This document shows positions 26,227 through 58,824 of a stretch of 60,465 bases of DNA, piece after piece. Position 1 is the first letter of the stretch. Every line of letters begins with the position of its first letter. Below the pieces are notes generated by a model. The model did no database searches, was not told the origin of the DNA, and saw nothing but the letters and a program-made list of their open reading frames with translations. Position numbers and translations under genes: made by a program. The stretch is from Klebsiella pneumoniae (GTDB lineage Bacteria > Pseudomonadota > Gammaproteobacteria > Ga0077536), in the NCBI GenBank assembly GCA_945876945.1, contig CAMCQE010000007.1, positions 1-60,465 on the forward strand, read 5' to 3'.

Positions 26227-26287
26227 GCCTGTTTACAGGCGAATTGACGCAGGACAGTCACCCGCTTACGCTACGTCCTCGTTTTGA

Positions 26288-26490
26288 ACTAGTGCTTCAG
26301 GTGCCCTTGCTGCTTCTGCATCAAGGGATAATCGGGAAGCCGGTGCGTTCCACTGCGGAACAACTCCGGCACTGCCCCCGCAACGGTAAACGCGGCGAAC
26401 CGCTCAAATGCCACTGTGCTTCAAGCATGGGAAGGCGAGTGGTTTCGATGGTGAACACCATCACCGCGCAAGTCCGGAGACCGGCCTGAG
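26288..26490 (+). promoter_or_regulatory. Cobalamin (AdoCbl-type) riboswitch upstream of btuB
   Basis: The leader has the conserved blocks of the cobalamin riboswitch in order: gtgcttcaggtgccc near 26292, the core AAGGGA-A-TCGGGAAGCCGGTG near 26323-26344, ACTCCGGCACTGCCCCCGCA near 26363-26382 with GCAACGGTAA after it, and the B12-box end AGTCCGGAGACCGGCCT at about 26471-26487. A GATGGT-GAAC-ACCATC hairpin lies at 26448-26463. It ends about 130 bases before the btuB ATG, so bound cobalamin should reduce btuB expression. Confidence 0.93.
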
Positions 26491-26618
26491 GTGTAAACCA
26501 ATTGAGTAGCGGTGGGCTGACTCACGGTGTTCACGCCTGTGTTTTTCAGTGTGCCCACCTGTGCCCCACCAGACTCCCCGAACTGCCACGCGGGTCAGCG
26601 TGGTGTGGAAGACATGTG

Positions 26619-29241: not shown

Positions 29242-31311
29242 TCACAACCACGGCGCACAAGGCCCCGTTTCGATTGAGAGCGTCTGAAACTCGGCCTGCC
29301 AGCCGAGGGCCAAACAGACCGCCTGCATGATTTTCTCGAGCCCTGCTTCGGACTGGGAAACCGTGTGGTGCGGGGCGAGTTTAGCCTGTAAAGGGACGCG
29401 AGACGATATGCCCAGGCGCCCCTTTAGCTCGGCGTCCTCAAGCCCTAGCCACGCAATTTCAGAGAGTTCCAGACGCCCGCCAAAGCCATCGGGGAAGCTG
29501 CCGTCGGCCAGCACATAGCGTCCCCCGTAGCCATCGCAACTCGGCATGGCGAAATTGAGTTCTGAAACCAGCCGCACCCCGGCAGACAACGGGGTTCGAT
29601 AGTCGACCACGCAGCCTGCGGGCGTCAGTCGCCAGCATTTCTCCAACGGCGAAGACGCGTCAACCAAGGCATGCTCAAAACGGAGTTCGGTCGCCGAGGC
29701 GGCAAGCAAACGCCACGCGTTGAGAGCAACGCGCCGACCGTCGGGGTAGAGCAGATGGTCAAGCGCGATCGCCCGAGCGTGGGAATCCAGCGCCAAATCC
29801 TCCGCGACCACCAGCGACTTGAAGGCCACCCGGTCGTGCGCCGACGCGATTCCGCCCTCCGTCGATGCGGCGGTTTCGTGCGCTTCGCCAGACAGCTGAC
29901 CAGAAATCTGACCAGAAATCTGACCAGAAATCTGACCAGAAATCTGATGATAGTGCTCGGCATGCCGGCGCAGGGTATCTCCAAAATTATGGCCCAGCGG
30001 GTAGCTCAGCAATTCGTGCGCGGCGGCGCGGCCATCGTCGCGAATCACCACTTGCACGGTGGCGTTGTGCAGCACGTATTCGGTGGCGCCGTCGTAGTCG
30101 AGATCCGCCGGGCGAACCTCAAGCCTGGGCTCTAGCGCATCCAGCGCCGCTTCCAGCGTCACCAGATTGCGCCACACCGCGCGGCGCAGATGGGGCAAAT
30201 AAAGCCCCCCGAACAAACCATGCCAGTAGGCGTCGTTGGCCTGCGCGGCGTAGAGCAAGCCCAGCAGGCTCGGGTCCTCGCGCCCGGATGACGCCGCCAG
30301 CCGCGCCGACAGGCCCAGCATGCGCTTGTGCAGCCAGTTGGCCTCCGGATAGCGCGTGAGGAAATTGCGCCAAATCCCGCCGCGCACGAACGGACGTTCG
30401 CGCTCCCAGTCTGGCCCTGCCTTCACCCGGGCCAGCAGCCCTGCGTAAGTGGCAGCGGCAGCGGCCGGCAAGGTCCATTCGTTCATTTCGCTGTAGGAAG
30501 CGGTGGGCAGATACACAATCCCGCGCGTCCGCTCGGCGGCGTGAAAATCTGCATAGGTGCTGGTGCGAATCAGGGGCGAAGCCAGCACGCCTTCAATGAA
30601 CTGCGTGAGCCAACCGCGCTCGTACACCCATTCATAGGTTTCGGGCCAGATGCCAAATTTTTCGATGTCGTCGAAATACACCGCCGCCCGCGCGCCATCC
30701 CGCGCCTGCTGCTCCAGGTAGGCCACGGCTTCCTGCGCCGGTGAAAACGGCAGGCGATAGCGCAGCTGTTCGGAAATGGGAAAGAGATCGAGCGTGGCGC
30801 CGTCCTCTTCGGTGGTGTAGTGGCCATCGAGTTCGCGCGCCTCGCGCCCGGTACACAGGAAGTGGTAGTCGTCCACGGTCACATAGCGGATCCCGCTGTC
30901 GGCCAGCGCCGGCACCACGCTCGATTCCCACACCCGCTCAGTCAACCAGGCACCGCGGGGACGCTGACCAAAATGCGCTGCCAGCTTGTTCGATAGCGCC
31001 AGCAGCTGCCCACGGCGATCGCGCGCCGGAATCGCCGCCAGCACCGGCTCGCAATCGCCCGCGCCAAAAAGCTCCACCTGACCGCGCGCCACCATTGCCG
31101 CCAGCAGCGTCATGTCCTCGGGGAAGCGCGCGCGGAGTTCATCCAGCAACCAGCCGGAAAAATGGGCGGCGAAACGAAACTCCGGATAGCGATACAGCGT
31201 CTGCAAAAACGGGCGGTAGCAGCGTTCATGCGCATCGTCGACCACGCTGGGGAAATTCCCCACCGGTTGATGCGCATGTACGCCGAGGAGCAAGGCAACG
31301 CGATGGGACAT
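29242..31311 (-). CDS. GH57 4-alpha-glucanotransferase / alpha-amylase
   Basis: A 689-residue glycoside hydrolase family 57 enzyme, closest in layout to the archaeal 4-alpha-glucanotransferase. The N-terminal catalytic barrel carries LGVHAHQPVGNF, the nucleophile Glu125 in GAWLTERVWESS and the acid Asp214 in YFDDIEKFGIWP, at nearly the same depth as in the Thermococcus litoralis enzyme. The C-terminal DUF1925/1926-like beta-sandwich region is present. Oddly, residues about 455-473 are a run of SGQI repeats encoded by a 12-bp DNA repeat. No signal peptide, so cytoplasmic. It lies 35 bases downstream of a second GH57 gene on the same strand and probably acts on storage glucan. Confidence 0.88.
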   Translation of the reverse strand: MSHRVALLLGVHAHQPVGNFPSVVDDAHERCYRPFLQTLYRYPEFRFAAHFSGWLLDELRARFPEDMTLLAAMVARGQVELFGAGDCEPVLAAIPARDRRGQLLALSNKLAAHFGQRPRGAWLTERVWESSVVPALADSGIRYVTVDDYHFLCTGREARELDGHYTTEEDGATLDLFPISEQLRYRLPFSPAQEAVAYLEQQARDGARAAVYFDDIEKFGIWPETYEWVYERGWLTQFIEGVLASPLIRTSTYADFHAAERTRGIVYLPTASYSEMNEWTLPAAAAATYAGLLARVKAGPDWERERPFVRGGIWRNFLTRYPEANWLHKRMLGLSARLAASSGREDPSLLGLLYAAQANDAYWHGLFGGLYLPHLRRAVWRNLVTLEAALDALEPRLEVRPADLDYDGATEYVLHNATVQVVIRDDGRAAAHELLSYPLGHNFGDTLRRHAEHYHQISGQISGQISGQISGQLSGEAHETAASTEGGIASAHDRVAFKSLVVAEDLALDSHARAIALDHLLYPDGRRVALNAWRLLAASATELRFEHALVDASSPLEKCWRLTPAGCVVDYRTPLSAGVRLVSELNFAMPSCDGYGGRYVLADGSFPDGFGGRLELSEIAWLGLEDAELKGRLGISSRVPLQAKLAPHHTVSQSEAGLEKIMQAVCLALGWQAEFQTLSIETGPCAPWL
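29891..29948. repeat. 12-bp in-frame tandem repeat inside the GH57 gene
   Basis: The unit cagaaatctgac occurs at 29901, 29913 and 29925, with a one-base variant at 29937 and a partial unit upstream at 29891. On the coding strand it gives repeated Gln-Ile-Ser-Gly. Because the unit is 12 bp, copy-number change would keep the frame. The identity of the units points to recent slippage expansion. Confidence 0.9.
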
Positions 31312-57665: not shown

Positions 57666-57900
57666 GGCGGTGGCTCCGGCTGCAGGGTCACGTTGCGGTG
57701 GCCGAAGTATAGGCGGCTTTAATCGCGGGGAGATATTGAGGGCTGCGTCGGCAAGCTTTGGCCGCATGCTTCAGGAGAGAGATGCGCGCCGCGCGGAGGG
57801 CGAGACTTGCGCTATCGCGCCCTTGGGGCGCTCCCACAGACGGGGCCGCGAGGTTCACCGGCGCACGGGGTCATTTCGGCTTTACTACCTGCTTCTGCGG

Positions 57901-58485
57901 GAGAGGGATGGATTCGCATTCGCTTGGGCGAATGCTCACCCCTGCGGGGCGCGCTATGCGCGTCCAAGCGCGCGTTGCGCGCTTGTCGAACCTAAGGGTT
58001 CTCATCGTGGCTTCTCTCTCCGCCAATATGGTGCCCGCTTTTAGCGGGCTCTTTGGCGAGAGAGGGATGGATTCGCATTCGCTTGGGCGAATGCTCACCC
58101 CTGCGGGGCGCGCTGTGCGCGTCCAAGCGCGCGTTGCGCGCTTGTCTAACCTAAGGGTTCTCATCATGGCTTCTCTCTCCGCCAATATAGTGCCCGCTTT
58201 TAGCGGGCTCTTTGGGGAGAGAGGGATGGATTCGCATTCGCTTGTCGAACCTAAGGGTTCTCATCATGGCCTCTCTCTCCGCCAATATAGTGCCCGCTTT
58301 TAGCGGGCTCTTTGGGGAGAGAGGGATGGATTCGCATTCGCTCGGGCGAATGCTCACCCCTGCGGGGCGCGCTATGCGCGTCCAAGCGCGCGTTGCGCGC
58401 TTGTCGAACCTAAGGGTTCTCATCATGGCTTCTCTCTCCGCCAATAAAAATGCCCGCTTTTAGCGGGCACTTTTATTGGCGGAGA
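57901..58485 (-). repeat. Tandem repeats downstream of tRNA-Ser, containing its 3' end and terminator
   Basis: Four head-to-tail units begin at 57901, 58060, 58219 and 58319 (each at GAGAGGGATGGATTCGCA). Unit lengths are 159, 159, 100 and 167 bp. Each unit carries the terminator core gcccgcttttagcgggc flanked by TCTCTCTCCGCCAAT on one side and a degraded GGAGAGAGGGA on the other. These flanks match the tRNA-Ser 3' end in inverted and direct orientation. Units also contain hairpins (attcgc-ttgg-gcgaat, caagcgcgc-gtt-gcgcgcttg). Identity between units is very high. The layout parallels the E. coli tyrT repeats (rtT). On the minus strand the units follow the tRNA and could be transcribed with it. 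Confidence 0.9.
58219..58318 (-). repeat. Shortened repeat unit (internal 59-bp deletion)
   Basis: The third unit lacks the middle segment that holds the gcgaat, cccctgcgggg and caagcgcgc hairpins. The join falls within the short direct repeat cgcttg, which in full units stands at both ends of the missing segment. This is the signature of slippage or recombination between short repeats. The tRNA-end and terminator part is retained. Confidence 0.85.
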
Positions 58486-58489
58486 GAGA
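58431..58489 (-). terminator. 28-bp terminator hairpin that incorporates the tRNA-Ser 3' end
   Basis: On the minus strand, the last 13 bases of the tRNA (with CCA) and its trailer pair with a downstream inverted copy: arms 58489-58462 and 58458-58431, loop AAA. All 28 positions pair in RNA, with one G-U wobble. The inner part (AGCGGGCA against TGCCCGCT plus a five-T run at 58450-58446) is a standard Rho-independent terminator. The outer arm repeats the acceptor-stem 5' strand (GGAGAGA), so it could compete with tRNA folding until trimmed. Confidence 0.85.
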
Positions 58490-58569
58490 GGGATTCGAAC
58501 CCTCGATAGAGCTTTTGACCCTATACTCCCTTAGCAGGGGAGCGCCTTCAGCCACTCGGCCATCTCTCC
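58477..58569 (-). tRNA. tRNA-Ser (anticodon GCU)
   Basis: A 93-nt type II tRNA with encoded CCA. The acceptor stem is GGAGAGA/TCTCTCC with G73, the D arm is GCCGAGTGGCTGAAGGC, the anticodon arm is CTCCCCTGCTAAGGGAG (anticodon GCT), the long variable arm contains TATAGGGTCAAAAGCTCTATC, and the T arm is GAGGGTTCGAATCCCTC. It closely resembles E. coli serV. It lies 60 bases downstream of csrA on the same strand, the typical gammaproteobacterial position. Confidence 0.97.
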
Positions 58570-58629
58570 GTGGCGGGCAGAATACCCATGAGGCTTGCCA
58601 GCGTAAAGCGTGGTCTCGCTCATCCGGGT

Positions 58630-58824
58630 TTATTCGTCGTCTGCGACAGCCTGTCCGGGTTGTTCCTGCTGAATACGCTGATAAATTTCTTCGCGATGAA
58701 CCGCGACATCCTTGGGCGCATTCACACCAATGCGAACCTGATTGCCTTTGATGCCGAGCACCGTCACATTGACCTCGTCGCCGATCATCAGCGACTCCCC
58801 GACTCTTCTGGTAAGAATGAGCAT
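58630..58824 (-). CDS. csrA: Carbon storage regulator CsrA
   Basis: A 64-residue post-transcriptional regulator that binds GGA motifs in mRNA leaders. The sequence [20 protein letters not shown], with [20 protein letters not shown] and [12 protein letters not shown], is canonical, including Arg44 in the RNA-binding strand. A GGAGATTAGG site lies just upstream of ATG 58824 and could also be a CsrA self-binding GGA site. It lies between lysC and tRNA-Ser as in many gammaproteobacteria. Confidence 0.97.

Follow-up and report, generated by a model that had tools for sequence, protein, structure and literature searches.

The window analysed here, a stretch of 60,465 nucleotides from Klebsiella pneumoniae contig CAMCQE010000007.1, ends with csrA, tRNA-Ser(GCU) and a repeat array, which follow one another in a common minus-strand direction. 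The csrA gene (58630–58824), named from its sequence and not from a family search, lies upstream of the tRNA. The tRNA gene, from which the arms of the repeats derive, occupies 58477–58569 (ARAGORN; Rfam RF00005, 60.3 bits). Using ARAGORN, a repeat search and Tandem Repeats Finder, we confirmed the original prediction of a four-unit array behind this tRNA. The units start near positions 57901, 58060, 58219 and 58319 on the plus strand, with spacings of 159, 159 and 100 nt, and their best copies are 97% identical. The repeat search also found inverted copies of the tRNA 3' end, 16–28 nt long and up to 100% complementary. Long open reading frames cross the repeats at 57758–58303 (plus strand), 58151–58444 (minus) and 57871–58185 (minus); they are likely spurious.

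Read in the direction of the tRNA, the order within a unit is a hairpin, GCCCGCT-AAA-AGCGGGC; an inverted copy of the tRNA 3' end, termed T' (GGCGGAGAGAGA...); a T-arm sequence, AGGTTCGA; a conserved module of about 75 nt with four hairpins, termed E; and GAATCCATCCCTCTC. The degraded direct copy of the tRNA end noted earlier is indeed present, and is described more exactly as the T-arm plus the acceptor 3' strand, split in the T-loop by E at TTCGA^ATCC. The window units have degraded tRNA-like 3' ends. One unit folds at -82.8 kcal/mol, compared with -52.1 ± 4.3 for shuffled sequences (z = -7.1).

All parts of the array lie on the minus strand. Next to the tRNA, a terminator-like hairpin (58451–58469) and a U-run (58450–58446) fall within 58446–58473 (repeat D2, inverted pair I1). 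They are followed by T' of unit 1 at 58412–58445 (inverted pair I1, 28 nt, 96% complementary) and by the direct T-arm copy at 58315–58411, into which E is inserted at 58325–58409 (103.6 bits with R1, a covariance model of E). Unit 2 consists of a hairpin (58291–58313, repeat D2), T' (58253–58287, inverted pair I8, 18 nt, 100% complementary) and a direct copy (58215–58252). Unit 3 has its hairpin at 58191–58213 (repeat D2), T' at 58153–58187 (inverted pair I10) and the direct copy at 58056–58152, with E at 58066–58150 (R1, 102.6 bits). In unit 4 the hairpin (58032–58054, repeat D2) and T' (57994–58028, inverted pair I9) precede the last direct copy (57897–57993), which contains E at 57907–57991 (R1, 104.9 bits) and ends the array. 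Extra hairpins had been predicted for every unit; they are present except in the 100-nt unit 2 (58215–58313), where nearly all of the module is missing and AGGTTCGACAAGCG is joined to AATGCGAATCC. CAAGCG microhomologies flank this junction, indicating that E was lost between them and accounting for the 100-nt spacing.

A terminator core shared by all units was likewise expected. The hairpin is found in each of them, whereas five consecutive U on the tRNA strand are present only at the hairpin adjoining the tRNA; the hairpins of units 2–4 lack it, reading CACTATATT or similar at this place. The shared core is thus not equal to four working terminators. The hairpin and the tRNA-like acceptor end in every unit would suit two roles, termination in series and a decoy function towards RNase P, RNase Z or exonucleases. 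The first role is weakened by the loss of the U-run from all units but one, and a scan gave a single terminator-like site, on the opposite strand, against 1.6 expected; the second sits poorly with the degradation of the tRNA-like 3' ends in the window. We consider both roles improbable.

DNA and covariance searches of the same genome revealed the same design after tRNA-Ser(UGA) (contig C40), after tRNA-Ser(GGA) (C36), after an Ala-Glu tRNA pair (C101, of which C148 is a likely continuation) and after a tRNA-like 3' end (C102), along with a decayed solo copy (C3). Among these loci the arms vary and fit the local tRNA, and E is conserved. For wider searches two covariance models were used: R1, which keeps the T-arm flanks, and R2, a class-wide model that also includes them and whose source loci exclude E. 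coli. Of 274 sampled genomes of the class, 96 contain R1 matches, representing 82 of 222 genera. A pattern scan yielded at least 80 loci; among the matches listed, all informative record titles belong to Gammaproteobacteria, including Woeseiaceae, Porticoccaceae, Halieaceae, Pseudohongiella, Aliidiomarina, Alishewanella, Saccharospirillum and others. Two metagenome-assembled genomes titled Klebsiella pneumoniae are also among the matches listed and may be mislabelled. In a phylum sample, 60 of 249 genomes have matches, some of which lie beyond the class and show this same arrangement after tRNA-Ser. Zero matches to the design were obtained in phage and plasmid collections. Units vary in number and length. 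In the sample the design is found most often behind serine tRNAs, so the earlier view of the serine version as an unfamiliar design falls away.

The proposed link to tRNA genes holds in related genomes. Within 600 nt of a tRNA lie 140 of 188 distinct E copies (137 on the tRNA strand, 3 on the opposite strand), a count biased towards tRNAs by the T-arm letters in R1 and R2. Two layouts are observed: E placed 50–110 nt after the tRNA (79 first units), and E inserted in the T-loop of a spare tRNA copy that immediately precedes an intact one (23 copies upstream of the tRNA end). Most matches in G043, in G299 and in the genome of the window are tRNA-linked; many dispersed R2 matches occur in genomes G159, G148 and G106. 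At one locus of G043 (L231, G043:C1:661800-664200), periodic R2 matches lie downstream of tRNA-Met on the opposite strand.

The sequence of the arms tracks the local tRNA. Over the first 14 nt beyond E, identity is 0.72 to the local tRNA, 0.65 to tRNAs that carry the same amino acid but differ in the arm, and 0.48 to others. Similarly, the inverted copy scores 12.2 ± 3.8 against the local tRNA and 7.2 ± 1.9 against other tRNAs (79 loci). Orthologous csrA–tRNA-Ser(GCU) loci contain E together with T' in G000, G004, G006 and G012; the two are decayed in G002 and G013, and neither is recognisable in G003, G007, G015 and more distant genomes. The local match of the arms and the joint presence of E and T' indicate that each locus supplies its own arms and that T' and E come together.

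The core of E reads hp1-GGACGC-hp2-CCCCGNAGGGG-YGAG-hp4-GARTC. In 25 cores, 98.1% of cells are paired, and 89 double-change cells are observed versus 23.6 ± 3.6 in shuffles. A set of 139 copies gives 809 versus 216 ± 18, a covariation that leans towards the model to which these copies were aligned. Tandem E-E junctions (L255) suggest CAAAA...GAATCA as the module's own ends, which would leave TTCGA and ATCC as the tRNA flanks. G-U pairs outnumber A-C mismatches in E (41 versus 16; p = 0.001, a value that is too optimistic for related copies), favouring the tRNA strand as the one that folds. An argument for DNA-level folding from the rarity of G-U pairs was discarded, as the difference between E (1.3%) and the tRNA acceptor (1.8%) or T-stem (4.5%) is too small. 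Inspection by eye also led us to reject a hammerhead-like reading of TGATGAG...CGA, which has no core match, and detected no compensation keeping the closing T'/T stem in the genome of the window.

The design recalls rtT, whose role and origin are, to our knowledge, not settled. It was described at E. coli tyrT as early as 1991 by Bosl and Kersten, a study cited in PMC4986893, and we found nothing beyond RtT in the literature on the general design. A likeness to tyrT was part of the original prediction and proved stronger than claimed. The E. coli tyrT/tyrV locus (L326) contains an inverted end, AAGGTTCGA, the module and ATCCTTCCCCCACCACCA, and agrees with the window in both the order of its parts and the point of insertion. 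R2 recovers all four E. coli tyrT/rtT units at 25.6–31.5 bits, part of which comes from tRNA letters in the model's T-arm flanks, and the next best match scores 8.7 bits; the Rfam RtT model marks the same four units. Of 20 RtT (RF00391) loci tested, all have R2 matches and 19 have a tRNA. Conversely, the RtT model matches E copies at five of our loci (L061, L069, L074, L077 and L082). In the class sample it matches 50 of 274 genomes, 18 of them above its cut-off, and several of these places coincide with those of R1.

Both the array and RtT, which also goes by the ncRNA name rttR, consist of tandem units directly 3' of a tRNA and on its strand, each beginning with the inverted tRNA end, continuing with a T-arm copy whose T-loop is split by a four-hairpin module and closing with the tRNA 3' end. 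The homology runs through intermediates, namely the R2 matches and the RtT matches on E copies, to which the T-arm letters of the model contribute. The window differs in its tRNA (Ser, not Tyr), in the terminator-like hairpin that each unit carries, in its degraded 3' arms and in a sequence beyond the reach of the Rfam model. RtT (RF00391, gathering threshold 45 bits) is absent from the window at gathering, with no match at E ≤10 in 57850–58600, and has 0 matches in the genome. We therefore call the array a divergent relative; by Rfam's rule it is not a member. Near the array, Rfam searches at gathering and at relaxed thresholds gave the tRNA as the only match above cut-off, and weak matches of plastid and microRNA type there reflect chance or the tRNA itself. 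Elsewhere the window contains a cobalamin riboswitch (26282–26503, plus strand, 122 bits) and five copies of a 12-nt tandem repeat, CCAGAAATCTGA (29888–29947).

The failure of the Rfam model on the window would be expected if the array and E. coli rtT were convergent, arising from independent insertions of hairpins into duplicated tRNA ends. We think this unlikely: bridging loci are matched by both models, and the two share the hairpin order, a CCCG-A/C-AGGG hairpin, the GA step and the insertion point. A further relative may be AaHKsRNA22 (RF02902), a small RNA of Aggregatibacter. In a 106-base search it aligns to a window unit with an E-value of 0.0032, the two sharing the order of hairpins and a CCCC-GGGG/YGAG core; the score of 24.8 bits is below Rfam's cut-off of 39.8, and the putative relation comes from this one alignment.

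Taken together, the array is probably a divergent relative of RtT, produced by insertion of a spreading hairpin module into the T-loops of duplicated tRNA tails. The building block is a copy of the 3' part of the neighbouring tRNA, whose T-loop is opened by E between A58 and R59. The block is headed by T' from the same tRNA end, and units are joined by the terminator-like hairpin. E would spread among tRNA genes and other sites with the local tRNA supplying the arms, and units would multiply and shrink through recombination between repeats. T' might originate, for example, from fold-back copying at the terminator hairpin; we offer this as a proposal only.

Several observations suggest that E moves: its presence or absence among relatives, the dispersed copies, and E-like modules near A^A in other loops of spare tRNA copies (the anticodon loop in L102 and L103, the D-loop in L154). 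In G307, which lies outside the class, many dispersed R2 matches of equal score are spread over several contigs, as from a recent expansion. The small number of E copies away from tRNAs in the genome of the window counts against mobility. Our tentative idea, which we hold with less than even confidence, is that E is a small mobile element homed in tRNA T-loops at A58/R59, and also in anticodon and D loops of spare tRNA copies, that recruits copies, both inverted and direct, of the local tRNA, with rtT of E. coli as one fossil. Searches for Y1 transposase in this and other genomes found no mobilising enzyme; if E is mobile, the enzyme would be a new one.

Known classes of elements offer other readings. 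Tyrosine-integrase islands often use tRNA 3' ends, and the arrays could be attachment sites left over from such islands. Integrase-like sequence was seen by eye near three copies (L028, L036 and L040), and in L073 a tyrosine-recombinase-like ORF (1460–2549) lies between two E copies in opposite orientation. Islands would leave direct copies of the tRNA end, however, not a conserved folded module with an inverted copy, and we regard this origin as improbable. Still less probable is a REP-like element moved by a Y1 (RAYT) transposase. REP/BIME sequences and the array are both repeated palindromic DNA, E is dispersed in some genomes, and rtT was reported to resemble a BIME-containing cluster (PMC2965389). 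Against this, Y1_Tnp was not found in the genome of the window, which is 97% complete, and E is absent from 30 loci around Y1 genes in other genomes. By description, E can also be likened to an element of another lineage. Rickettsia palindromic elements are described as hairpin elements located within RNA genes and, in frame, within ORFs; some of the dispersed E copies in G159 overlap ORFs. At one locus (L224), E copies overlap large ORFs of a phage-defence-like cluster, giving peptides such as LDSRQAGPEGA.

If E is carried within tRNA transcripts, what does it yield? The units may be transcribed by read-through to give a small structured RNA, as in E. coli. The RNAs of E. coli rtT and Actinobacillus RtT have been reported to be expressed, the latter by Northern blot (PMC4986893), and AaHKsRNA22, whose hairpins line up in order with those of a window unit, is a named small RNA family. 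The excess of G-U pairs, favouring folding of the tRNA strand, points in the same direction. Furthermore, GGA in the hp1 loop and GGA in the hp4 loop co-occur (70/5/8/41 in the A3 alignment of 139 copies), resembling CsrA sites. These data raise the possibility, one we do not favour outright, of a selected regulatory RNA freed from the tRNA transcript, whose GGA-loop forms might bind CsrA. Several points argue against it. A U-run separates the tRNA from unit 1 in the window, and 65 of the 79 first units have TTTT there. In the window, GGA, which is seen in other lineages, is absent from the loops of hp1 and hp4; the GGA association may reflect lineage only, and close relatives differ in whether the array is present. 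Judging from RtT of E. coli and Actinobacillus, a stable processed RNA is plausible, but in the lineage of the window a terminator-like hairpin stands between the tRNA and unit 1.

For annotators, these arrays carry a warning: several contigs stop within them, and they give spurious ORFs. More broadly, rtT now falls within a wide family that follows one rule, a conserved hairpin module at a single T-loop position with arms from the local tRNA, which accounts for the anatomy of rtT. This family-wide rule makes the origin, the spread and the RNA product testable by comparison rather than in one locus.
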